Shown: piece by piece, positions 3,086 through 59,791 of the stretch | How positions within the stretch are numbered: position 1 is the first letter of the stretch | Layout of the letters: each line of letters begins with the position of its first letter | Assembly: GCF_003449015.1 (NCBI RefSeq) | Contig: NZ_QRGD01000001.1 | Location: 822,638-886,637, forward strand | DNA from: Aureibaculum luteum | Lineage (GTDB): Bacteria; Bacteroidota; Bacteroidia; Flavobacteriales; Flavobacteriaceae | Direction: 5' to 3' | DNA length: 64,000 bases | Made by a program: the position numbers and the translations under genes | Notes under the pieces: generated by a model | The model's database searches: none | The model's input: only the letters and a program-made list of their open reading frames with translations | What the model was told of the DNA's origin: nothing

Positions 3086-5635
3086 TTAAAATGGGTAATT
3101 AATACCAATATTATATACAGCATTACCAAAGTTGTAATTCTTGAACCATTTATTAGAAGAGCCAAGATAAGGTTCATAGGTTTTAAACCCGGCATCTAAA
3201 CGAAACACTAAAAAACTAAAATCGTATCTAATACCAAACCCAGAACCTACCGCAATATCTTTTAGAGACGAAAGTCCATTAAACTTGGCTTTACTATCAG
3301 TTATGGATGAGTTGGTTATATCCCAAATATTACCAGCATCAATAAAAAGTGCACTATAAATATTGTTTACAACCTGAAAACGATATTCTAAATTTGAGGT
3401 AAGTTTTAAACTTCCCACATTAAATTCTAACCCATTGGTTTCTGAACCTGGCCCTAATTTAAAAGTATTCCATGCTCTAATATCATTAGAACCACCCGCT
3501 CTATAGCTTCTACTAAATGGTATGGATTCAGAACTACCCATAGGAAAAGCAGCCCCTATAAATGTTCTATGAACTAACGATGCCTTTGAATTAATACCCC
3601 AATATTTTTTATATTCAACTTCGGTTTTTATATACTGTGCTACCTCTAAACCAAAAAGTTCTTTTTTATTACTAGTAGAAGATTTATTTACAAACATTGA
3701 TGTAATATTACCTGATGATACTAACTTAGCAGTGAAACCTGAAAAACTATTATCAGTAAAACCATCCCTATTGCTATAATTATAAGTGTATGACATAACT
3801 GGAACCAGTACATCTTCAGTTAAAATACTTCTTCGTTCTTCTACATCTTCTGCATTTTCATATTCGGTAGGGTTTGAAACGGAAAATCCTTCATCAGCAT
3901 CAAGTATATATTCCAAATAATTTGAAGAGTTTAAATCGCCATCATCATCATATAAATTTTCTCCACCAACAGTTATATAGGTTTCATCAGGAACTATCAC
4001 TTCTGCAATATTATCTAACTTATAAGCTTCAGACTTATAAATAGTAAAATATTTATCAGTTCTCAAATTTTTAATATACTGCATGTTTAGCAGTTCAAAC
4101 TTATGGTCAGTAGTTTTAGAACTTTTCCAAGTATAATTTAAACCCCCAGTAATGTTTTGCCTATCTAAACCTATATTTCGTTGAAGAGCAATACTTAATT
4201 CAACATTGGTTTTAGGTGTCATTCTTTTTGGAATGATACCTTTAGTATTTATTGGGAATAGTATTCTTGGAAATTTTAAAGTTGCACTTGAACCAATTTC
4301 CCATGCATTAAAAAAACGATCACTATCTGCAATTTCAGCTGCTACATTTAAAAAAGAGCCTTGAAATGACACTTCTAATACTTCAGCTCCTCTAAATACA
4401 TTTCTGTTTGACCAAGATACTTTACCCAATATACCAAATGGCTTAATGTTAGAGGTAATATACTCATTATCAATTCCAAAAGAGAATTTTTTTAGTGGTG
4501 TTAAATATATATTTGAAGTAAGTGAACCGTCTTCGTTTTCTTCATATTTAATATCTAATGAAGGTTTAAAATTCTGTAAATCTCTTAAATAGGCTCTAGT
4601 TAATTGCTGTTCTGTATCTCTATATATACTATCTTTTTGAATAATAATAGCATTTGCCAAATATTTAGGGTTGTACGCTAATTTATTGGTTGACTTAAAA
4701 TTATACCCCTTATAAGATACAGAATCTTGAATCGGTTTGTTTTTATCAACAAAAGAAAAATCAGTATAAACATTTACCGTACTTACTTTTCTAATCTTAA
4801 AAGGCTCTGTATAAACACTATCATTTTTTTCAATGACCCTGTCATTTATCTCTAAGGTCACACTCGTTCTGTAAGGCGATAAACCCAACGTATCTATCCA
4901 ATACTCCATGTTGTTTTTTCCAAAATAATAAACACCAGAATTTCTAAATATTTCAATTAGACGGTCTTCCTCATTTTCAAACTTGGTATAATCTATCTGA
5001 TCTCCAACCTTAACCAAAGACTTGCCTCTATACAGTTTATATAGCGAATCAAGAACGGGTGAGCTAATATCAGTTGCTATACTATCAATAAAATAAGGGT
5101 TATTTTTAGTAACCAAATAATCAACAGTAATTTTTTTATTGTCTTTTTTTATTTGTTTAAAACTGGCTTCAGCATCAAAATAGCCCTTACTTTGATAATA
5201 CTTAGTCAAAGAACTTACCGATTTTCTAATTTTTGTGCTGTCAGAAATTACAGGAGCATTGCCATTTTTCAAAAACCAAGCATTTATTCCATTATAGGCA
5301 TTTTCCATTGCCTTTACTTGTTTTTGAGAAAAGACATTGACTAATTTTCGTTCTTTATTTGGGTTTTTATCTAACCACTCTTGAAACTTTATTTCATAAT
5401 TTGGTTTTGCAAAATTATAAATATGCAGAGAAATAGGAATTCCGAGTATCTTTGTATTAGGAGTTTGTCTAAGGTAACTAATAACATCAGGGTTGCCAAT
5501 TTTTTTATCATCTACCACAATAGTGTTTTTTGATAGCAGATATTTATCCTGAGGAACCCTTTTGGTTGCAGTACAAGAAATAATTACAACAGTTAATATT
5601 ATAAATACTATTATTTTAGCAAAATAGTTATACAA
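3086..5635 (-). CDS. tamL: Lipoprotein Omp85-family outer membrane assembly factor TamL
   Basis: Members of the Omp85/BamA/TamA family insert or translocate outer membrane proteins; the Bacteroidota version, TamL, is a lipoprotein thought to work with TamB. The 849-residue protein starts with a lipoprotein signal (Val-Ile-Ile-Ser-Cys, Cys21), then POTRA-like periplasmic repeats in the first 400 residues, then a C-terminal beta-barrel ending in Phe. The motif RAGGSNDIRAW (about 725) is the D15/surface-antigen signature. The start codon is TTG at 5635: there is no in-frame ATG upstream, and a good promoter (5674-5703) lies 39 nt before it. The divergent TrmH-type gene is a common neighbour in flavobacteria. 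Function is by family; no TamB is in the window. Confidence 0.85.
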   Translation of the reverse strand: MYNYFAKIIVFIILTVVIISCTATKRVPQDKYLLSKNTIVVDDKKIGNPDVISYLRQTPNTKILGIPISLHIYNFAKPNYEIKFQEWLDKNPNKERKLVNVFSQKQVKAMENAYNGINAWFLKNGNAPVISDSTKIRKSVSSLTKYYQSKGYFDAEASFKQIKKDNKKITVDYLVTKNNPYFIDSIATDISSPVLDSLYKLYRGKSLVKVGDQIDYTKFENEEDRLIEIFRNSGVYYFGKNNMEYWIDTLGLSPYRTSVTLEINDRVIEKNDSVYTEPFKIRKVSTVNVYTDFSFVDKNKPIQDSVSYKGYNFKSTNKLAYNPKYLANAIIIQKDSIYRDTEQQLTRAYLRDLQNFKPSLDIKYEENEDGSLTSNIYLTPLKKFSFGIDNEYITSNIKPFGILGKVSWSNRNVFRGAEVLEVSFQGSFLNVAAEIADSDRFFNAWEIGSSATLKFPRILFPINTKGIIPKRMTPKTNVELSIALQRNIGLDRQNITGGLNYTWKSSKTTDHKFELLNMQYIKNLRTDKYFTIYKSEAYKLDNIAEVIVPDETYITVGGENLYDDDGDLNSSNYLEYILDADEGFSVSNPTEYENAEDVEERRSILTEDVLVPVMSYTYNYSNRDGFTDNSFSGFTAKLVSSGNITSMFVNKSSTSNKKELFGLEVAQYIKTEVEYKKYWGINSKASLVHRTFIGAAFPMGSSESIPFSRSYRAGGSNDIRAWNTFKLGPGSETNGLEFNVGSLKLTSNLEYRFQVVNNIYSALFIDAGNIWDITNSSITDSKAKFNGLSSLKDIAVGSGFGIRYDFSFLVFRLDAGFKTYEPYLGSSNKWFKNYNFGNAVYNIGINYPF

Positions 5636-5673
5636 CGCAATTTTCGATTTAAAGGGAATATTTATTAAAACAC

Positions 5674-5703
5674 CAAAAATACTACTATTTAGATGTTAAG
5701 CAA
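5674..5703 (-). promoter_or_regulatory. Promoter of tamL (TTG-N19-TATTTTTG)
   Basis: On the minus strand TTG (5703-5701) is followed after 19 nt by TATTTTTG (5681-5674), matching the Bacteroidota consensus TTG/TAnnTTTG. It overlaps the first codons of the divergent methyltransferase gene. Confidence 0.65.
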
Positions 5704-6415
5704 AAATGAACATAAATTAATAACGAGTTTACAACAAAAAAAGTACCGAATTCAACATCAATTGTTTGTTGCTGAGGGCGTAAAGGTTGTAAACGAATTT
5801 TTAAACTCTAATCTTCAACTCCATAAGTTATTTTGTACTGAGGATTATTCCCATTCCATATCAAAATATGAGCCAGAAATAATTACAGACAAAGAATTAT
5901 TGAAATTAAGTAAATTATCTACACCAAATAAGGTTATTGCTATATTTAAAATTCCTGTAGCTAATGCCATAAAGACAGAAGGATTAACTGTTGCTTTAGA
6001 TGCTATTAACGATCCGGGAAATTTAGGAACCATTATCCGCTTGTGCGACTGGTTTGGTGTATCTCAACTAATATGTTCTTCAGACACGGTTGATTGTTAC
6101 AATAGCAAAGTGGTACAGGCGACCATGGGATCATTAACCAGACTGTCAATTATTTACACTGATTTAAACACATATTTAAAAAATGCCAGTAGCCCCATTT
6201 ATGGTGCCGTAATGGATGGCAAAAATGTATACAATACTGATTTAGAAAAAAATGGAATTTTAGTAATGGGTAATGAATCGCAAGGAATTTCAACGGAAAT
6301 TGAACATTTATTGAGTCAAAAAATAACAATTCCAAAGTTTAGTAAAAACAATACTCCTGAAAGTTTAAATGTAGCAACCGCAACTGCTATTTTATTGAAT
6401 GAGTTTAGAAGATAA
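5693..6415 (+). CDS. TrmH/SpoU-family RNA 2'-O-methyltransferase
   Basis: A SPOUT-fold enzyme expected to methylate a ribose 2'-OH in rRNA or tRNA using S-adenosylmethionine. The 240-residue protein has an N-terminal substrate-binding domain of about 90 residues, then the SpoU catalytic domain. Motif 1 is AINDPGNLGTIIR (about 103-115), motif 2 is LVMGNESQGIS (about 190) and motif 3 is near the C-terminus (SLNVATATAILLNEF). The N-terminal domain suggests an RlmB/TsnR-like 23S rRNA target, but the exact nucleotide cannot be read from the sequence. Its ATG lies within the promoter of the divergent tamL. It converges with porT, with only 5 nt between the stops. Confidence 0.88.
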   Translation: MLSKNEHKLITSLQQKKYRIQHQLFVAEGVKVVNEFLNSNLQLHKLFCTEDYSHSISKYEPEIITDKELLKLSKLSTPNKVIAIFKIPVANAIKTEGLTVALDAINDPGNLGTIIRLCDWFGVSQLICSSDTVDCYNSKVVQATMGSLTRLSIIYTDLNTYLKNASSPIYGAVMDGKNVYNTDLEKNGILVMGNESQGISTEIEHLLSQKITIPKFSKNNTPESLNVATATAILLNEFRR

Positions 6416-6420
6416 AGTAA

Positions 6421-7119
6421 CTATTCAAAAGTTAGGTTTAAGAAAACCCCTCTTGTTCCATAATAGTCTATGGGTAAAGTCCATGGGCTACTTGGATTGT
6501 TATCTCGAACTAATTCATTATTCATTGCAAAAATGCCCCTAATAGATGGTGAAAACTTAAAGTGTGGTAAATAGAAATCTACTCCTAAACCAACCTCGTA
6601 CATAAAGTTATTGGATTTCATTCTAAACTCACCTTCAAAATTATCATCTGAATTTTTCTGATTACTAGAAAAATTATAATCATAAGACACGCCCCCAATT
6701 ACAAAAGCACGCATATTATCTAAACGATCTGTTCTAAATTGAAGTAATAAAGGAATTCTAAAATAAGTAGCTGGCACTTCTCTCACCCTATCTTTTTCTG
6801 TATCTGGAATGGTTGGGTTAGAAAACGTCAACACTTTAGAGTTACTAGACAAACCAGGCTCAAGTCTTATATTTAGGTTATCACTAATATTATAACCTAA
6901 AACCAGACCAATATTAAAACCATACTTTTCTTCAACATCTACAAACGAGTTTGCTAGCTCATAACTAACCTTAAAGCCTTTTTTATTGATTCCTAAATAA
7001 TATCCGTAATGGATTTTTTTCTTATCCTTATTAGGAAGGTTTATTACTTTATCTTTTTGAGCAAATGAATTGCCAATAAAAATTAGTACACTAACTATAC
7101 ATAAAAATGATCTATTCAT
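6421..7119 (-). CDS. porT: PorT/SprT-like type IX secretion and gliding protein
   Basis: PorT (SprT in Flavobacterium) is an outer membrane beta-barrel protein needed for the type IX secretion system. The 232-residue protein has a Sec signal peptide ending near Ser-Phe-Ala-Gln (about 21), a short basic segment, and then antiparallel strands typical of small porin-like barrels, ending in Phe-Glu. The assignment rests on length, barrel pattern and the conserved position directly downstream of ubiE, which is how porT is placed in flavobacteria. The window also encodes T9SS cargo with C-terminal sorting domains. A hairpin with arms TGAAG/CTTCA (7139-7166) lies in its leader; its role is unknown. 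Confidence 0.82.
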   Translation of the reverse strand: MNRSFLCIVSVLIFIGNSFAQKDKVINLPNKDKKKIHYGYYLGINKKGFKVSYELANSFVDVEEKYGFNIGLVLGYNISDNLNIRLEPGLSSNSKVLTFSNPTIPDTEKDRVREVPATYFRIPLLLQFRTDRLDNMRAFVIGGVSYDYNFSSNQKNSDDNFEGEFRMKSNNFMYEVGLGVDFYLPHFKFSPSIRGIFAMNNELVRDNNPSSPWTLPIDYYGTRGVFLNLTFE

Positions 7120-12056: not shown

Positions 12057-14204
12057 CTAAAATAACAACGATACTCCAACCAAAAAATTGGTAGTTGCTT
12101 GGGGATAATAACCTTGAATTTCTTTTGAAGACCCTGGTGTGCTCCAGAAATCTAAATAGGTATATCCATTAGATTCGTACTTTTCATTAAAAACATTATT
12201 AACCAATCCAGATAAAACTATAGATTTAAAAATCTTTTTTGGTTTGATTTCATAAGTAATATTAAAATCGTTTACAAAATAACTGTCTAATTTTGAAGCT
12301 TCCGTATCCGTATTACTTAGATACTGCTCCCCGACATACTTCGTTAAAAAGATAAAATTTAAATTTTCTATGGGTTCATAATTAAGCATATTACTAACCA
12401 CTGTATTTGGCGAAAATGAAATATTCGTTGAGCCTATATTATTTACAATACCATCTCTTTCTAGCATAAAATCTTTAATTTTATTCGTACTAAAAGCAAC
12501 AGTTGGTATCACAGAAAATTTATTGGTTACTTTAATATTAGCATCAATCTCTAGTCCTGCTCTAAAACTATTTGGTACGTTAGCTCTTTTATAATCTCCA
12601 ACATCATCGATATCTCCTGTAAGAACTAATTGATTTTTATAATCCATATAGTAAGCATTGATATTTATGTTTGCCTTTTCTGAAGCATATCTCCAACCTA
12701 ATTCAAAGTCACTTAATCTTTCTGATTCCGGTTTAGTCTCCGCTTTAAAATCATCTCTATTCGGTTCTCTATTGGCTACTGCGAAAGATCCATAAATACT
12801 ACTGTTATCATTTATCAAGTATGTTAAACCCATTTTAGGATTAAAAAATGAAAAATTTTCATCAACAAGTAAAGGAACTTGATCGGATGTAACTCCTGTT
12901 GTTTTATAATCTACTAATCTTAGTTGAAGGTCTCCATAAGCTTGTAGCTTTTCACTAATTTTAAAAGTTGCTTTAGAGAAAAAAGACACATCTTCCTTTT
13001 TACCATTTCCATCATAATAATGATCTCCAAGGGAAGTTCCTCCAGAATTTTGAGCCCAGATAACTTCACCATAGTGATCAGAATCATAACTACTATAAGA
13101 ACCTCCAAAAATTAAATTTAACGAGTCATCTTTATAATCAACATTTAAATTAGCAACATAAAAATCTGGTGTTAACCACCTTCTTCGTATTAAATCTGTT
13201 GAATTGATAGTTTCACCTCCTAATTCAATTGGTGTGAAATTATAATCTTCAAAATCTTCGCCATCCTTAAACTGCTCAAAATAACCTCTTCCTTTGGTAT
13301 AATTCAATCCTAAATTTGTTGACCATCGATTAGAATACCTTTGATTCCAATGCAATTGATAATGGTCTTGTTTAAAATTATCTACTTCATTATCATATGT
13401 ATAATAATTAAAAGTTCTATCGGTTTTTAATGTTTCCGAATCTACACCATACCAAGATTGGTAAGTCACTTCATTACCCCCAAAAGCTAAGGCTTTTATT
13501 AGTGTATTATCATCTTTGTAGGCTGCCTGTAAAAAATAAGATTTCAAATTAGACGAGGCTCTATCTACATATCCATCAGAAGTAATTTTTGAGAGTCTAC
13601 CAGCTATTTCAATATGGTTATTTAACAACCCAGTGCTAAACTTCACACTATTCTTATAGGTATTAAAACTTCCAAGAGAAGATGATATTTGCCCATAAGC
13701 ATTATCTGCAACAGCGTCAGTCAACAAATTTAAACTAGCACCAAATGCACCAGACCCATTTACTGAGGTACCTACACCACGTTGTAATTGCAAATTTTCT
13801 ACAGAAGAAGCAATATCTGGCATATTTACCCAAAAAGTTCCCTGAGATTCAGCGTCATTATAAGGAATACCGTTAATGGTTACATTTACTCTAGTACCAT
13901 CACTACCCCTTACGCGTATACCAGTATATCCAACTCCAGCTCCAGCATCTGATGTAGTAACCACTGAAGGCAAATAGTTCATTAAAATGGGAATGTCTTG
14001 CCCTAAATTCCGTTTACTTAACTCTACTTTATCAATGTTGGAATGGGTAATAGGCGAAGTGGCGTTTACACGCACAGCTTTAACAATAACTTCGTCTAGT
14101 TTTTCTACTCTGACAGAATCTTTTTGTTTTTCTTGTGAAAATAATTGTGTGGATAGCAGGAGTCCCGCTATAGATAATGGTAATTTAAAATAATGAAATT
14201 TCAT
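12057..14204 (-). CDS. TonB-dependent receptor under TPP riboswitch control, probable thiamin receptor
   Basis: An outer membrane active transporter. The 715-residue protein has a signal peptide (to about 23, LFSQ), a TonB-box-like start (DEVIVKAVRV, about 36-45), a plug domain with IRVRGSDGTRVNVTINGIP (about 95) and a 22-strand-type barrel ending VSLLF. No carboxypeptidase-like N-terminal domain is present. The substrate call comes from the leader: a TPP riboswitch lies 115 nt upstream (14320-14398) on the same strand. TPP-controlled TonB receptors in Bacteroidota are established as thiamin-linked by comparative genomics. Thiamin rather than a precursor such as HMP is my inference. The possible inner membrane partner is the PnuC-like gene at 58834-59547. 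Confidence 0.85.
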   Translation of the reverse strand: MKFHYFKLPLSIAGLLLSTQLFSQEKQKDSVRVEKLDEVIVKAVRVNATSPITHSNIDKVELSKRNLGQDIPILMNYLPSVVTTSDAGAGVGYTGIRVRGSDGTRVNVTINGIPYNDAESQGTFWVNMPDIASSVENLQLQRGVGTSVNGSGAFGASLNLLTDAVADNAYGQISSSLGSFNTYKNSVKFSTGLLNNHIEIAGRLSKITSDGYVDRASSNLKSYFLQAAYKDDNTLIKALAFGGNEVTYQSWYGVDSETLKTDRTFNYYTYDNEVDNFKQDHYQLHWNQRYSNRWSTNLGLNYTKGRGYFEQFKDGEDFEDYNFTPIELGGETINSTDLIRRRWLTPDFYVANLNVDYKDDSLNLIFGGSYSSYDSDHYGEVIWAQNSGGTSLGDHYYDGNGKKEDVSFFSKATFKISEKLQAYGDLQLRLVDYKTTGVTSDQVPLLVDENFSFFNPKMGLTYLINDNSSIYGSFAVANREPNRDDFKAETKPESERLSDFELGWRYASEKANININAYYMDYKNQLVLTGDIDDVGDYKRANVPNSFRAGLEIDANIKVTNKFSVIPTVAFSTNKIKDFMLERDGIVNNIGSTNISFSPNTVVSNMLNYEPIENLNFIFLTKYVGEQYLSNTDTEASKLDSYFVNDFNITYEIKPKKIFKSIVLSGLVNNVFNEKYESNGYTYLDFWSTPGSSKEIQGYYPQATTNFLVGVSLLF

Positions 14205-14291: not shown

Positions 14292-14319
14292 AAAAAGTAC
14301 AAATGACTTTTAATTGTCA

Positions 14320-14398
14320 ACTTCCCTAAACAGCATTATCTGTTCTAGGTTCAATGGGTATAATCTCAGCCGATATTAGGCACCCCTTTATTGAGACG
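14320..14398 (-). ncRNA. TPP (THI element) riboswitch
   Basis: The minus strand shows the conserved blocks in order: GGGGTGCC, then GGCTGAGAT, ACCC, TTGAACCT, then a variable P3-side stem (ACAGATAATGCTGT), closing with TTAGGGAA. CTGAGA and TTGAACCT are the diagnostic pyrimidine-binding core bases. Binding of thiamin pyrophosphate is expected to lower expression of the receptor that follows. Confidence 0.9.
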
Positions 14399-14701: not shown

Positions 14702-17485
14702 ATGAAAAAAATTACTCAATTATGTTTGATGTTATTGTTTTTTGTAATGTCATCAGCAATTTATGCACAAACCATTACAGGTACTGTTCAAGATGAATCA
14801 GGGCCTTTACCTGGAGCCAATATTTTGGAAAAAGGAACTACTAATGGTACTACAACAGATTTTGACGGAAAATTTTCGTTAAATGTTAAAGGAGGTTCAG
14901 GATCAATTGTACTTTCTTTTGTTGGTTTCTCAAATAAAACAGTAAAATTTATTGTTGCATCAGGTGAAACTAAAGATTTAGGAACAATTACATTAGCTTC
15001 AGACAATGCATTAGAAGAAGTAATACTTGTAGGGGTTGCTGATATTGCTAAAGAAAGACAAACGCCTGTTGCGGTTTCTACAATCAGAGCATTGGAGATT
15101 CAAGAATCTTTAGGAACCAAAGAATTTCCAGAAATATTAAGTTCAACACCTTCAGTTTATGCTACAAAACAAGGTGGAGGTTATGGAGATTCAAGAATCA
15201 ACATTCGTGGTTTTGATCAACGAAATACAGCAGTTATGGTTAATGGTATGCCAGTTAACGATATGGAAAATGGTTGGGTATATTGGTCTAACTGGGCTGG
15301 TTTATCAGACGTTACTTCTGCAATGCAAGTTCAACGAGGTTTAGGTTCATCAAAATTGGCTATTTCGTCAGTTGGTGGTACAATAAACATTTTAACAAGA
15401 GCTTCAGACAAATCAGCAGGAGGTTCTGTAACGGGATCATTTGGTCATGACAACTCAATAAACACCATGGTATCTTACAACACTGGAAGATTAGATAGTG
15501 GATTGTCTGTTTCGGCTTTAGTAGGAAGAAAAACAGGTGATGGTTATGTTGATGGAACTGAATATGAAGGATACAATTACTATTTAGCATTAGGTTACAA
15601 ACCTAATGAGAATAATGACTTTCAGTTAACTATTACTGGAGCTCCTCAACAGCACTTTCAAAGAAGTTATGCAGAACCATTAAGTGTTTATCAAAAATAC
15701 GGAAAATATGGTGAGCCAAATATAAAATACAATAGTGGATGGGGTTACAGAAACGGAGAAACTGAAACTTTCGCAGGTAATTTCTATCATAAACCTGTAG
15801 TTTCTTTAAACTGGGATTTAAAATTATCAGAAGCTTCTAAAATTTCTACTGTATTATATGCTAGTTTAGCACGTGGTGGTTCTATTGGGGCTATAGGTAG
15901 AATAAACGGAAATGCCTCTTACGCAGACAGAATAGATGATGCAAATGGTCAAATTAGATTTGATGATATTATTGCTTGGAACTCTGGTCAAGATGTACCT
16001 GATTTTGCAAATGCAGCTTATGGAGACCCAATTAGTCGTACTCCTATTGATGGTGCATTTACAAACACTGGAGATAACGGACACCCTTCTAGTGTAGGAG
16101 GTGAAGGAAAATATGGAAGTGATAATGGTATCTCTCAAAGATCATCAATGAACTCTCATAACTGGTTCGGAGTTATATCTAATTACAATACTAAATTAAA
16201 TGAAAATTTAACATTGGATTTTGGTGTTGATCTTAGAACATATAAAGGAATTCATTACAGAAGATTAGTAGATAATTTAGGGTCAGCTGGTTATGTAGAT
16301 TATGATAACGCAAATTTCCCTAATGGTGTAGCAATTACTGAAACATATGCTCCAACAATTGCCAATTTATGGAATGTTTTCGCAAATCCAGAAGATGAAC
16401 AACAAATAGATTACTATAATGATGGTAAAGTAAATTGGGGAGGTGTATTTAGTCAATTAGAATATACCAATGGTACTATTTCTGCATTTGTTCAGGCTGC
16501 TGTTTCAAGTCAATCATTTAAAAGAATTGATTATTTTACATATACAGATGACGATCCTGCACAAGAATCTGACTGGGAAACAATCTTAGGTGGAAATATA
16601 AAAGGTGGTATCAACTGGAATATTAATGAGCAACATAATATCTTTGCTAATGCGGGCTATTATTCGAAACAACCGAACTTTGATGCTATTTTTCCTGATT
16701 ATAATAATGATGTAAACGAAGATTACGAAAATGAACAAGTTATTGGTCTTGAAGTTGGATACGGTTTCCGTTCAGAAAATTATTCTTTAAATCTAAATTT
16801 ATACAGAACATCATGGGCTGATAGATTTGAATCAACTTCTGAAAATTTTGATGTAAACAATACCCCAAATGATGATAGAGATGATGTAAGAGGTAATGCA
16901 AATATCAATGGTGTTGAACAAGTACACATGGGTATTGAATTAGAAGCTAAAGCTAGATTTGGTAAATTAGATATTCAAGTAATGACTTCAATAGGTGACT
17001 GGCAGTATAATGGTACAGCTTCAGGTAAAGCTTATGATGAGGATCAAAATTACTTAGGTGACGTTGATTTGTATTTAGATGGTGTTAAAGTTGGAGATGC
17101 TGCTCAATTTACTGCTAGATTAGGCTTAAGATATGAAATCATAGAGGGTTTAAAATTTGATATATCTCAATCATATAACGATAAATTATATGCAGATTTT
17201 AGTGCTACCGATTTTGCTAGTGAAGGAAACAGTGCTTTGAAATTACCAAGCTATTCTTTAGTTGATGCTGGTATGTCTTACAACTGGAAATTCAATAATG
17301 ATAAAAATTCATTGAATTTCAGAGTAAATGTAAACAACTTAGGAGATAGAGTTTATATTTCTGAGTCTGACACCAATTATCAAGTACGTTCTGGAGATCC
17401 TACTTGGAAAGGTATTAGTACTGGAAACAGAGTTTATTTTGGATGGGGAAGAACTTGGAATGCTTCTGTAAGGTTCAATTTCTAA
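14702..17485 (+). CDS. TonB-dependent receptor with carboxypeptidase-like N-terminal domain
   Basis: An outer membrane transporter of 927 residues. Order: signal peptide (to about 23, IYAQ); carboxypeptidase-D-like regulatory beta domain (about 24-105, with ITGTVQDESGPLPGANI); TonB-box-like segment; plug (about 125-225, INIRGFDQRNTAVMVNGMPVND); large barrel ending SVRFNF. This layout is typical of Bacteroidota receptors for large or organic substrates. No SusD partner follows, so it is not a classic polysaccharide locus. The substrate cannot be told from sequence. It is transcribed away from the thiamin receptor, has its own promoter, and is closed by a strong terminator. Confidence 0.9.
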   Translation: MKKITQLCLMLLFFVMSSAIYAQTITGTVQDESGPLPGANILEKGTTNGTTTDFDGKFSLNVKGGSGSIVLSFVGFSNKTVKFIVASGETKDLGTITLASDNALEEVILVGVADIAKERQTPVAVSTIRALEIQESLGTKEFPEILSSTPSVYATKQGGGYGDSRINIRGFDQRNTAVMVNGMPVNDMENGWVYWSNWAGLSDVTSAMQVQRGLGSSKLAISSVGGTINILTRASDKSAGGSVTGSFGHDNSINTMVSYNTGRLDSGLSVSALVGRKTGDGYVDGTEYEGYNYYLALGYKPNENNDFQLTITGAPQQHFQRSYAEPLSVYQKYGKYGEPNIKYNSGWGYRNGETETFAGNFYHKPVVSLNWDLKLSEASKISTVLYASLARGGSIGAIGRINGNASYADRIDDANGQIRFDDIIAWNSGQDVPDFANAAYGDPISRTPIDGAFTNTGDNGHPSSVGGEGKYGSDNGISQRSSMNSHNWFGVISNYNTKLNENLTLDFGVDLRTYKGIHYRRLVDNLGSAGYVDYDNANFPNGVAITETYAPTIANLWNVFANPEDEQQIDYYNDGKVNWGGVFSQLEYTNGTISAFVQAAVSSQSFKRIDYFTYTDDDPAQESDWETILGGNIKGGINWNINEQHNIFANAGYYSKQPNFDAIFPDYNNDVNEDYENEQVIGLEVGYGFRSENYSLNLNLYRTSWADRFESTSENFDVNNTPNDDRDDVRGNANINGVEQVHMGIELEAKARFGKLDIQVMTSIGDWQYNGTASGKAYDEDQNYLGDVDLYLDGVKVGDAAQFTARLGLRYEIIEGLKFDISQSYNDKLYADFSATDFASEGNSALKLPSYSLVDAGMSYNWKFNNDKNSLNFRVNVNNLGDRVYISESDTNYQVRSGDPTWKGISTGNRVYFGWGRTWNASVRFNF

Positions 17486-58216: not shown

Positions 58217-58876
58217 TTAAAAATCATAATTATTACCCATATCAGTGTTCTGATGCAAAAAGTGCATATCTATATCTTCTAGATTTTTTGAAAAACTATC
58301 TAGATTGGTTCGTTCTGCTAGAATTTTATCTATGGCTTGCGTAGCTAATTTCAAACGCGTTTTTTTATCTCCTTTTAGCAAAATATAGGGTCTGTTGTAT
58401 TTTTTCAATGCACTCTCAAAAGCATCAAACATTTCTTTTCGCAATTCTGGTTTATCACGTAAATCATCTGCTTCCCATGGCGTGTCAATATAAGTTAACA
58501 AGTATAAATCATACGTATTTTCAACTGCAGCTTCATCTAATAACGGATTTACAAAGCCACCATAATATTCTTCTGAATATACTTTTGTTTCGAGCAGATC
58601 GGTATCGCAAATCAAAACATTATCTGCTTTTTTAGCCAATTTATTTTCAAGCTTCATCTGCCCCTCTGCAATGGGTATTAAATCAGAATTTTCACAAGTT
58701 TTTCGGTAATTATTCCATTTGTCTTGTAGGTATTCACGTGCATATTCAGCAACCCAAACGGTGTTATAATGGCGTGCCAATTGCTCTGAAAGTGTTGTTT
58801 TACCTGTAGATTCTGGACCAAACAAAACTACTTTTACAACATTTGCATCTTTTGATTGTCTAAGCTTTTCTTCCAT
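58217..58876 (-). CDS. NadR-type (ribosylnicotinamide kinase-like) P-loop kinase
   Basis: The 219-residue protein matches the kinase domain of NadR. It has Walker A GPESTGKTTLSEQLA (about 19-33), VAEYAREYL (about 47), LICDTDLLETKVYSEEYYG (about 87-105, nucleotide/substrate loop) and TPWEADDLRD (about 136). NadR kinases phosphorylate nicotinamide riboside taken in by PnuC, trapping it. The start overlaps the PnuC-like gene by 43 nt, so the two work together. But the third gene of the operon encodes a thiamin-binding-like protein, so the substrate could be thiamin. The sequence alone does not decide. Confidence 0.85.
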   Translation of the reverse strand: MEEKLRQSKDANVVKVVLFGPESTGKTTLSEQLARHYNTVWVAEYAREYLQDKWNNYRKTCENSDLIPIAEGQMKLENKLAKKADNVLICDTDLLETKVYSEEYYGGFVNPLLDEAAVENTYDLYLLTYIDTPWEADDLRDKPELRKEMFDAFESALKKYNRPYILLKGDKKTRLKLATQAIDKILAERTNLDSFSKNLEDIDMHFLHQNTDMGNNYDF

Positions 58877-59547
58877 TGTTTATATCCTAAATAAGCAATT
58901 ACTAATAATATTATAAATTGAATTCCGGTAAACCCAAGTCCTTTAACAAAATACAGCGGAATGGCAACGATATTACCCATAATCCACAATATCCAATGTT
59001 CTATTTTTTTTAGAGCCATTAACCACATGGCCGCAAAAAATATCCCAGTTGTAAAGGTATCTAAAAAAGGTGTTATTTTTCTAAAATCATCTAAACTACC
59101 AGAAGTCATATTGGTAAAAGCATAATTAACACTATCTGTAAATCCTAAATTATTGGGCATTACATTATAATAACGATAGACTAAGATTACAAATAGTGAG
59201 GTAAAAATAAAAATACCAAAAGCCTTTAATTTATCTGATGTATTCGTTCGTGTTATCGGAATATGATTTTCCTTTTCATCAATTACTTTACTCCACATGT
59301 ACCATCCAAAAACACTCATGATAGTGTAGTAAATATTAATGATAAAATCGCCATAAAGCACATACTTATAACAAATATATACGTAAATACAGGTACTTAT
59401 AATCCCTAAGGGGTAGACTAAAATATTTTCCATTTTTCCATACCACACACCTACAACTCCAAATAACATTGCTGTAAATTCAAGAACAATATCTAATGTT
59501 GTTGCCGTACGATAAGGCTCTAAGAAAAAATCAATAATTTGATTCAT
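58834..59547 (-). CDS. PnuC-family vitamin transporter (nicotinamide riboside or thiamin)
   Basis: The 237-residue membrane protein has about seven helices. The PnuC features are VWYGKMENILVYPLGI (about 33-48), FGWYMWS (about 79) and HWILWIMGNIVAIPLYFVKGL (about 184, the substrate-binding Trp-rich helix; split match). PnuC proteins are facilitators driven by phosphorylation of the substrate inside; the next gene encodes a NadR-like kinase (43-nt overlap). PnuT relatives carry thiamin. The YkoF-like gene upstream (17-nt overlap) and a TPP-controlled receptor elsewhere in the window make thiamin a real option. Confidence 0.85.
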   Translation of the reverse strand: MNQIIDFFLEPYRTATTLDIVLEFTAMLFGVVGVWYGKMENILVYPLGIISTCIYVYICYKYVLYGDFIINIYYTIMSVFGWYMWSKVIDEKENHIPITRTNTSDKLKAFGIFIFTSLFVILVYRYYNVMPNNLGFTDSVNYAFTNMTSGSLDDFRKITPFLDTFTTGIFFAAMWLMALKKIEHWILWIMGNIVAIPLYFVKGLGFTGIQFIILLVIAYLGYKQWKKSLDNQKMQML

Positions 59548-59791
59548 AAGTACTTCTATCTGTTTTAACTATTTTCATATACATCAATCCAATTTCAATT
59601 GAATTGAATGCTTTTTTAATCTCGTCTTGAAGAATATTAAAAACCTGATCATAATCACCATACACTTGAGTGCTTAATGGATTTTCCAACACTGTAAGTC
59701 CACTATTTCTTAAAGCTTTTATAAATTCTATGATAGCGGCCTCATAATTGTCTTGTAATGGACTAAAAGTTAATTCAACTGATATTTTCAT
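59531..59791 (-). CDS. YkoF/MTH1187-like thiamin-binding protein
   Basis: The 86-residue protein is a small alpha/beta ferredoxin-like domain: first strand MKISVELTFSPL, helix EAAIIEFIKALRNSG, then NPLSTQVYGDYDQVFNIL (about 37-54) and last strand. The LSTQVYGDYD segment is the ligand-site signature of YkoF-type proteins, which bind thiamin or HMP. No signal peptide, so cytoplasmic. It overlaps the PnuC-like gene by 17 nt and the GGGP synthase gene by 17 nt. A buffering or delivery role for thiamin is inferred from the family. Confidence 0.75.
   Translation of the reverse strand: MKISVELTFSPLQDNYEAAIIEFIKALRNSGLTVLENPLSTQVYGDYDQVFNILQDEIKKAFNSIEIGLMYMKIVKTDRSTYESNY

Follow-up and report, generated by a model that had tools for sequence, protein, structure and literature searches.

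ThiK (YcfN) is a thiamin kinase that converts thiamin to thiamin monophosphate, with ThiL acting downstream on thiamin monophosphate as its substrate. Single-phosphate transfer is also the reaction type of NadR kinase and of the thymidylate kinases. YkoF, which is built of two domains of the kind considered here, accompanies the YkoEDC transporter. How aquatic bacteria acquire vitamin B1 is an ecological question. In Bacteroides, OMthi and pnuT-tnr3 (BT2390 and BT2396-BT2397) constitute a thiamin uptake system (PMC5613172), and a riboswitch located beside a Pnu gene has been used to infer the substrate of the transporter (PMC7749635, PMC5301498).

Here, we analyze a trio of genes in a window of 64,000 nucleotides, by which we mean the whole stretch of Aureibaculum luteum DNA under study; the corresponding genome (G000) comprises 5.1 Mb on 48 contigs. 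A first-pass annotation had suggested that the trio, together with a riboswitched receptor in the same window, might serve thiamin salvage with a NadR-fold kinase. The features concerned are:

12057-14204 (-), TonB-dependent receptor (PF00593 and PF07715), predicted outer-membrane thiamin receptor
14306-14398 (-), TPP riboswitch aptamer (RF00059), ahead of the TonB receptor
58217-58876 (-), trio kinase, 219 aa, stand-alone NadR-fold P-loop kinase, predicted thiamin kinase
58834-59547 (-), PnuC-family transporter, 237 aa, predicted thiamin facilitator
59531-59791 (-), YkoF/Thiamine_BP-like protein, 86 aa, gene 1 of the trio

Identity and arrangement of the genes in the window

The overlaps of 43 nt (PnuC/kinase) and 17 nt (YkoF-like/PnuC) from which an operon had been proposed are borne out by the window coordinates, and the upstream GGGPS-family gene overlaps the YkoF-like gene by 17 nt as well. 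We then surveyed 120 genomes from 119 genera of the window's family. Among these relatives, all 111 PnuC genes adjacent to a kinase share 14-49 nt with it, and 79 of 83 YkoF-like frames run into PnuC, 76 of them by exactly 17 nt; the lengths are approximate, as the relatives' start codons were chosen by script close to the window's starts. Such overlaps are more than chance would produce.

The assignment of the three products as NadR-like, PnuC-like and YkoF-like agreed with the profile matches. The sole Pfam match of the trio kinase is PF13521 (AAA_28; 149.5 bits), and the protein has the ribosylnicotinamide-kinase fold with a Walker A motif by which NadR membership is recognized. Its structure model matches the NadR kinase domain and thymidylate kinases. 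An NMN adenylyltransferase domain is absent from the 219 residues, NadR models being matched in the C-terminal kinase part only, and the TPK_catalytic profile PF04263 was not matched in the Pfam search. The window PnuC matches PF04973 with 166.3 bits (cut-off 27.3), which places it in the Pnu family, and exceeds the cut-off of the nicotinamide riboside (NR) transporter model TIGR01528 (94.8 bits, cut-off 42.45). It is the single PnuC that a search of the whole window genome returned. Its match extends over about 620 nt compared to 543 nt in most relatives, with an insertion common to G119, G116, G047 and G058. The YkoF-like protein matches PF07615 with 22.1 bits (cut-off 21) and PF01910 with 24.7 bits, just below the cut-off of 24.9; PF01910 is matched at E<=0.01 by all 24 relatives in the alignment, which holds 24 of the 84 found. 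In a Foldseek search, its model matched 2ibo, MJ1052 and TM0486 best, followed by MTH1187 and YkoF, and thus has the fold of the family; the YkoF-thiamin complex 1sbr is among the matches. The YkoF-like gene is present in 83 of the 115 family kinase loci.

The TPP-riboswitch receptor that had been noticed in the same window is likewise there, with the element at 14398-14306 (-) preceding the receptor at 12057-14204 (-), about 44 kb from the trio. The element matches the full length of RF00059 with 44 bits (E 2.5e-5), below the Rfam gathering score of 54.3. It is the one TPP element found in the whole window genome, and its aptamer core is conserved, as seen from invariant columns among 24 elements (window plus 23 relatives). 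Scores below gathering are common to many relatives, since the family elements exceed the gathering score in only 38 of the 120 genomes, compared to 111 with E<=0.001. A further TonB-dependent receptor (14702-17485), which has a carboxypeptidase-regulatory-like domain, is encoded divergently from the TPP-linked one.

Linkage to TPP elements within and beyond the family

PnuC was found in 118, the kinase in 115 and a TPP element in 111 of the 120 family genomes. Mapping of the locus neighbours with the window's own proteins as queries gave a usual order of AHCY (opposite strand), PPT, GGGPS, YkoF-like, PnuC, kinase, DUF4301, ArfB, TPP element and receptor. The first-pass annotation had proposed to compare the co-occurrence of the trio with THI elements and with nad genes, and for the THI elements the outcome is in its favour: in 100 of the 115 kinase loci, both a TPP element and a homologue of the window receptor follow the kinase on its own strand. 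Control by a TPP riboswitch would mark a PnuT; the elements of the family occur in this receptor-linked, downstream position, and none immediately precedes the trio of the window. In seven of the 15 loci lacking the downstream pair, less than 3.3 kb of contig remains. The remaining eight include the window genome and that of a member of the same genus; in both, 44-46 kb separate pnuC from the element and the receptor. The element begins 9-34 nt after the kinase in six loci. A covariance model built from 24 receptor-linked TPP elements added elements in 15 loci without an earlier Rfam match. Among named records (Polaribacter, Tenacibaculum, Lutibacter, Winogradskyella, Maribacter, Cellulophaga and others), 71 of 80 kinase loci have a same-strand TPP element further downstream, these loci being the best 80 of a longer list and partly from the same genomes as the 120.

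DUF4301 adjoins the kinase in 97 of the 115 loci and is fused to it in two (L155, 8893-11010; L105, 8995-11010). Of two members that were scanned, one has a weak match to UTP-glucose-1-phosphate uridylyltransferase (PF01704, 22.2 bits, cut-off 22). We considered DUF4301 as an obligatory partner and discarded this, as none was found beside 18 of the 115 kinases (the window's included, some of them at contig ends), G100 has kept it despite losing the kinase, and none was found in 40 kinase loci from outside the family.

The linkage of the trio with the TPP element in the family may partly be synteny inertia. Of these 40 loci from other families of the phylum, 34 were read as stand-alone kinases and six as full-length NadR based on their N-termini. 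In seven stand-alone loci from four families (f3, f5, f8 and f9), a TPP element and a receptor are found beside the kinase, at five of them together with a PnuC. Five of the seven elements pass the Rfam gathering score; weak matches came from L253 and L254 (28 bits, E about 1e-5). AHCY, PPT, GGGPS and ArfB occur in none of the seven, and pure synteny inertia as cause of the linkage is weakened because kinase, TPP element and receptor are linked here without these neighbours. In most of the remaining stand-alone loci there is no TPP element within about 6 kb, and none was found at E 0.01 in the six NadR loci (L235 gave 14 bits, E 0.28). Behind the receptor of L253 lies a ThiE gene, and the TPP-linked kinase of L246 is fused with an aldose 1-epimerase domain (5071-6516).

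At the level of sequence, the trio kinases fall into a clade from which NadR is excluded. The kinase alignment took in 44 of the 116 kinases found, and in the tree of 73 rows a clade with 95/92 support unites 62 rows (34 trio, 21 other stand-alone and seven TPP-linked). Six NadR and five stand-alone rows fall outside; L235 and L264 were omitted, as they gave no match to the Walker pattern used. The PnuC tree of 71 rows has a clade (98/98) holding all 31 trio rows, 11 PnuC beside stand-alone kinases, four that immediately follow TPP elements, and a single further row; the mis-extended row L194 had been lost. Outside are seven NadR-linked PnuC, 11 kinase-linked ones (including the TPP-linked L229, L246, L253 and L254), the TPK-linked PnuC of G016 and L219, and the PnuC of G017. 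In both trees, the root is arbitrary and some branches are long. In a comparison of PnuC residues, also proposed in the earlier annotation, trio and TPP-riboswitched PnuC agree with each other and not with NadR-linked PnuC at some positions, and the substrate is not decided by them. A residue-level substrate call was dropped as not decisive: the trio's Asn at position 71 also occurs in the solved PnuC 4qtn, and the four TPP-riboswitched PnuC carry Leu at W188.

Further PnuC arrangements occur in family genomes. At four loci (L176, 4859-6582; L185, 735-2492; L186, 9974-11721; L189, 4817-6573), PnuC stands behind a TPP element and overlaps a flavin-monooxygenase-like gene of the acyl-CoA dehydrogenase/HsaA type; such a TPP-controlled cassette could serve uptake and repair of an oxidised or degraded thiamin vitamer. 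A second PnuC type lies beside a 2OG-Fe(II) oxygenase homologue (L193, 6977-8253; L190, 4276-5540; L196, 10995-12256; L197, 4195-5555); this pair is divergent in L197 and sits directly behind a TPP-linked receptor in L193.

Thiamin gene content and competing readings

TPK was found in eight of the 120 family genomes with PF04263, and an alignment of 16 TPKs recovered the same eight (209-278 bits) and no further one at E<=0.01; neither search found it in the window genome. ThiC occurs in 25 and ThiL in 119 of the 120 genomes (118 over cut-off), the single miss being a 66% complete genome. Two family genomes have weak ThiL-like paralogues of the AIR synthase type downstream of strong TPP elements (L203, G022:C6:30457-31329; L204, G089:C119:3403-4248), with 82 and 65 bits against the ThiL cut-off of 184. 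ThiE is present in 46 genomes, 37 of which we count as clear (E below about 1e-20); nine have weaker matches only. All 93 genomes in which neither ThiC nor TPK was found have the kinase, and the 80 among them that also lack a clear ThiE (71 if the weaker ThiE matches are counted) all have both kinase and PnuC. From pathway knowledge, imported thiamin would in cells without ThiE and TPK need one phosphorylation by another enzyme. The window genome has a ThiE of its own (L199, 8180-8824; G000:C12), flanked by a membrane-protein gene and a short helicase-like gene and located away from the other identified thi genes, so that a second source of thiamin monophosphate is possible there.

The kinase was not found in five family genomes, namely G016, G002 and G100, which have TPK, and G020 and G079, which lack PnuC as well and have ThiC. 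In G016, receptor, PnuC and TPK stand in a row behind the TPP element, and TPK overlaps PnuC and occupies the kinase's slot. G002 kept the TPP element and receptor in the conserved neighbourhood; PnuC and kinase are gone there, and TPK is present. In three other genomes, the kinase is kept, the trio PnuC lost and another PnuC present, directly behind the TPP element in G022, behind the receptor in G017 and on a different contig in G099. TPK and kinase can nevertheless coexist, since five of the eight TPK-bearing family genomes retained the kinase, as did 14 of the 17 genomes of group g120 from the phylum sample, all of which have TPK; the kinase frames of this group have 733-800 aa. Within the family, kinase loss amounts to 3/8 with TPK versus 2/112 without (p 0.0019, shared ancestry ignored). 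Across 296 genomes of the phylum, 75 match the kinase profile, 148 have TPK, 15 both and 88 neither (Fisher p 1.7e-9, shared ancestry again ignored). Mutual exclusion of kinase and TPK was rejected as proof, as these p values ignore ancestry and full-length NadR inflates the kinase matches, being the sole match in at least five of the 75 genomes (G306, G132, G153, G249 and G215).

Taken together, the linkage to TPP element and receptor, the scarcity of TPK (8/120) next to near-universal ThiL (119/120), the swap in G016 and the trees support, on genomic grounds, the earlier proposal of a thiamin pathway with a NadR-fold kinase. We consider it likely that the trio serves thiamin uptake and phosphorylation by a NadR-fold thiamin kinase, followed by conversion to TPP by ThiL. 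This refines the earlier idea: the likely unit is a thiamin kinase working with ThiL, supplied by the receptor, which is usually adjacent.

The best structural and sequence matches of the kinase are NadR kinase domains, the window PnuC lies over the cut-off of the NR-transporter model, and genuine PnuC-NadR pairs do occur in the phylum. All of this would fit plain NR salvage, in which PnuC imports NR, the kinase makes NMN as a precursor of NAD, and neither the YkoF-like protein nor the TPP-linked receptor has anything to do with their neighbours. We regard this as improbable, however, given the missing NMN adenylyltransferase domain and the separation of trio kinase and PnuC from NadR and NadR-linked PnuC in the trees. 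G001 moreover carries the trio in addition to a separate PnuC-NadR-type pair, and neither the TPP linkage nor the TPK pattern would be expected. In a small sample of ten ORFs from six loci, one kinase itself was the only NAD-synthesis match.

The swap in G016 can also be read in another way: if TPK took the place of an equivalent enzyme, the kinase might transfer pyrophosphate and turn thiamin directly into TPP, with ThiL kept for other thiamin monophosphate. ThiL is indeed present in G016 alongside TPK, with no ThiE found, and its persistence hence does not require the kinase. Pyrophosphate transfer nonetheless appears very unlikely to us, as the kinase model matches NadR kinase and thymidylate kinases, enzymes of single-phosphate transfer, and ThiL in 119 of the 120 genomes makes a one-phosphate product sufficient. 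Little more than a slim chance is left for a different substrate altogether, such as a different vitamer (HMP, thiazole or a breakdown product) or a sugar-like compound that would reach the DUF4301 protein in phosphorylated form. The frequent adjacency and the two fusions of DUF4301, the weak PF01704 match and the further PnuC that travel with oxygenases would speak for it. Against it stand the 18 kinases without DUF4301 beside them, the kinase-less G100 that keeps it and the 40 loci outside the family without it; and as 80 genomes lack ThiC and clear ThiE, HMP or thiazole alone would be insufficient for thiamin there.

Proposed route and comparison with known systems

The thiamin route can be drawn from the observed gene content, overlaps, linkage, trees and folds, from the presence of ThiL and from the searches that found neither TPK nor ThiC, and we infer every substrate and every reaction in it from gene content and linkage. 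Thiamin would cross the outer membrane via the TonB receptor encoded behind the TPP riboswitch and equilibrate over the inner membrane through the PnuC-family protein. The NadR-fold kinase would then convert it to thiamin monophosphate. Since a Pnu facilitator does no more than equilibrate its substrate, this phosphorylation would keep the vitamin inside the cell. ThiL, encoded elsewhere in the genome, would make TPP from the monophosphate. The YkoF-like protein may bind or buffer cytoplasmic thiamin and perhaps deliver it to the kinase.

No assignment of a NadR-type kinase to thiamin was found in the open-licence literature searched, in which NadR was named in only part of the searches; within this scope, the use of such a kinase for thiamin is undescribed, as the first-pass annotation had supposed. 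As ThiC was not found in 95 and TPK not in 112 of the 120 family genomes, the salvage map drawn with known enzymes has a hole. On balance, we lean towards the view that the stand-alone kinases of NadR fold found next to PnuC represent a novel family of thiamin kinases, filling the place of ThiK in the Bacteroidota, and with a PnuT-like facilitator and ThiL form the standard B1 route of TPK-less flavobacteria, including the many without ThiC. If true, this thiamin kinase would fill the hole, vitamin B1 would be added to the substrates of a kinase fold linked with vitamin B3, and numerous proteins annotated as 'nicotinamide riboside transporter PnuC' would need a new name.

The reaction proposed for the trio kinase, with ThiL next, is that of ThiK/YcfN. 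ThiK, however, belongs to a different kinase fold, and the trio kinase has PF13521 as its only Pfam match. The YkoF-like protein resembles the YkoF/Thiamine_BP proteins (1sbr, 1vk8, 2ibo, MTH1187) in predicted fold and profile match, but consists of one 86-residue domain and is encoded beside PnuC. With PnuC-NadR NR salvage (PMC7221760), the trio shares a Pnu transporter beside a kinase of the same fold; it differs in the absent NMN adenylyltransferase domain, the separate clades and the TPP linkage. The Bacteroides OMthi/pnuT-tnr3 system (PMC5613172) likewise has TPP riboswitch, TonB receptor, Pnu transporter and a thiamin-phosphorylating enzyme as one set, and its counterpart in gene order is the receptor-PnuC-TPK row of G016. 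Unlike it, the window has a NadR-fold kinase in place of TPK and a YkoF-like protein in addition, and its trio has no TPP element directly ahead. By analogy, the trio route thus resembles an OMthi/pnuT-tnr3-like layout in which the pyrophosphokinase would have been replaced.
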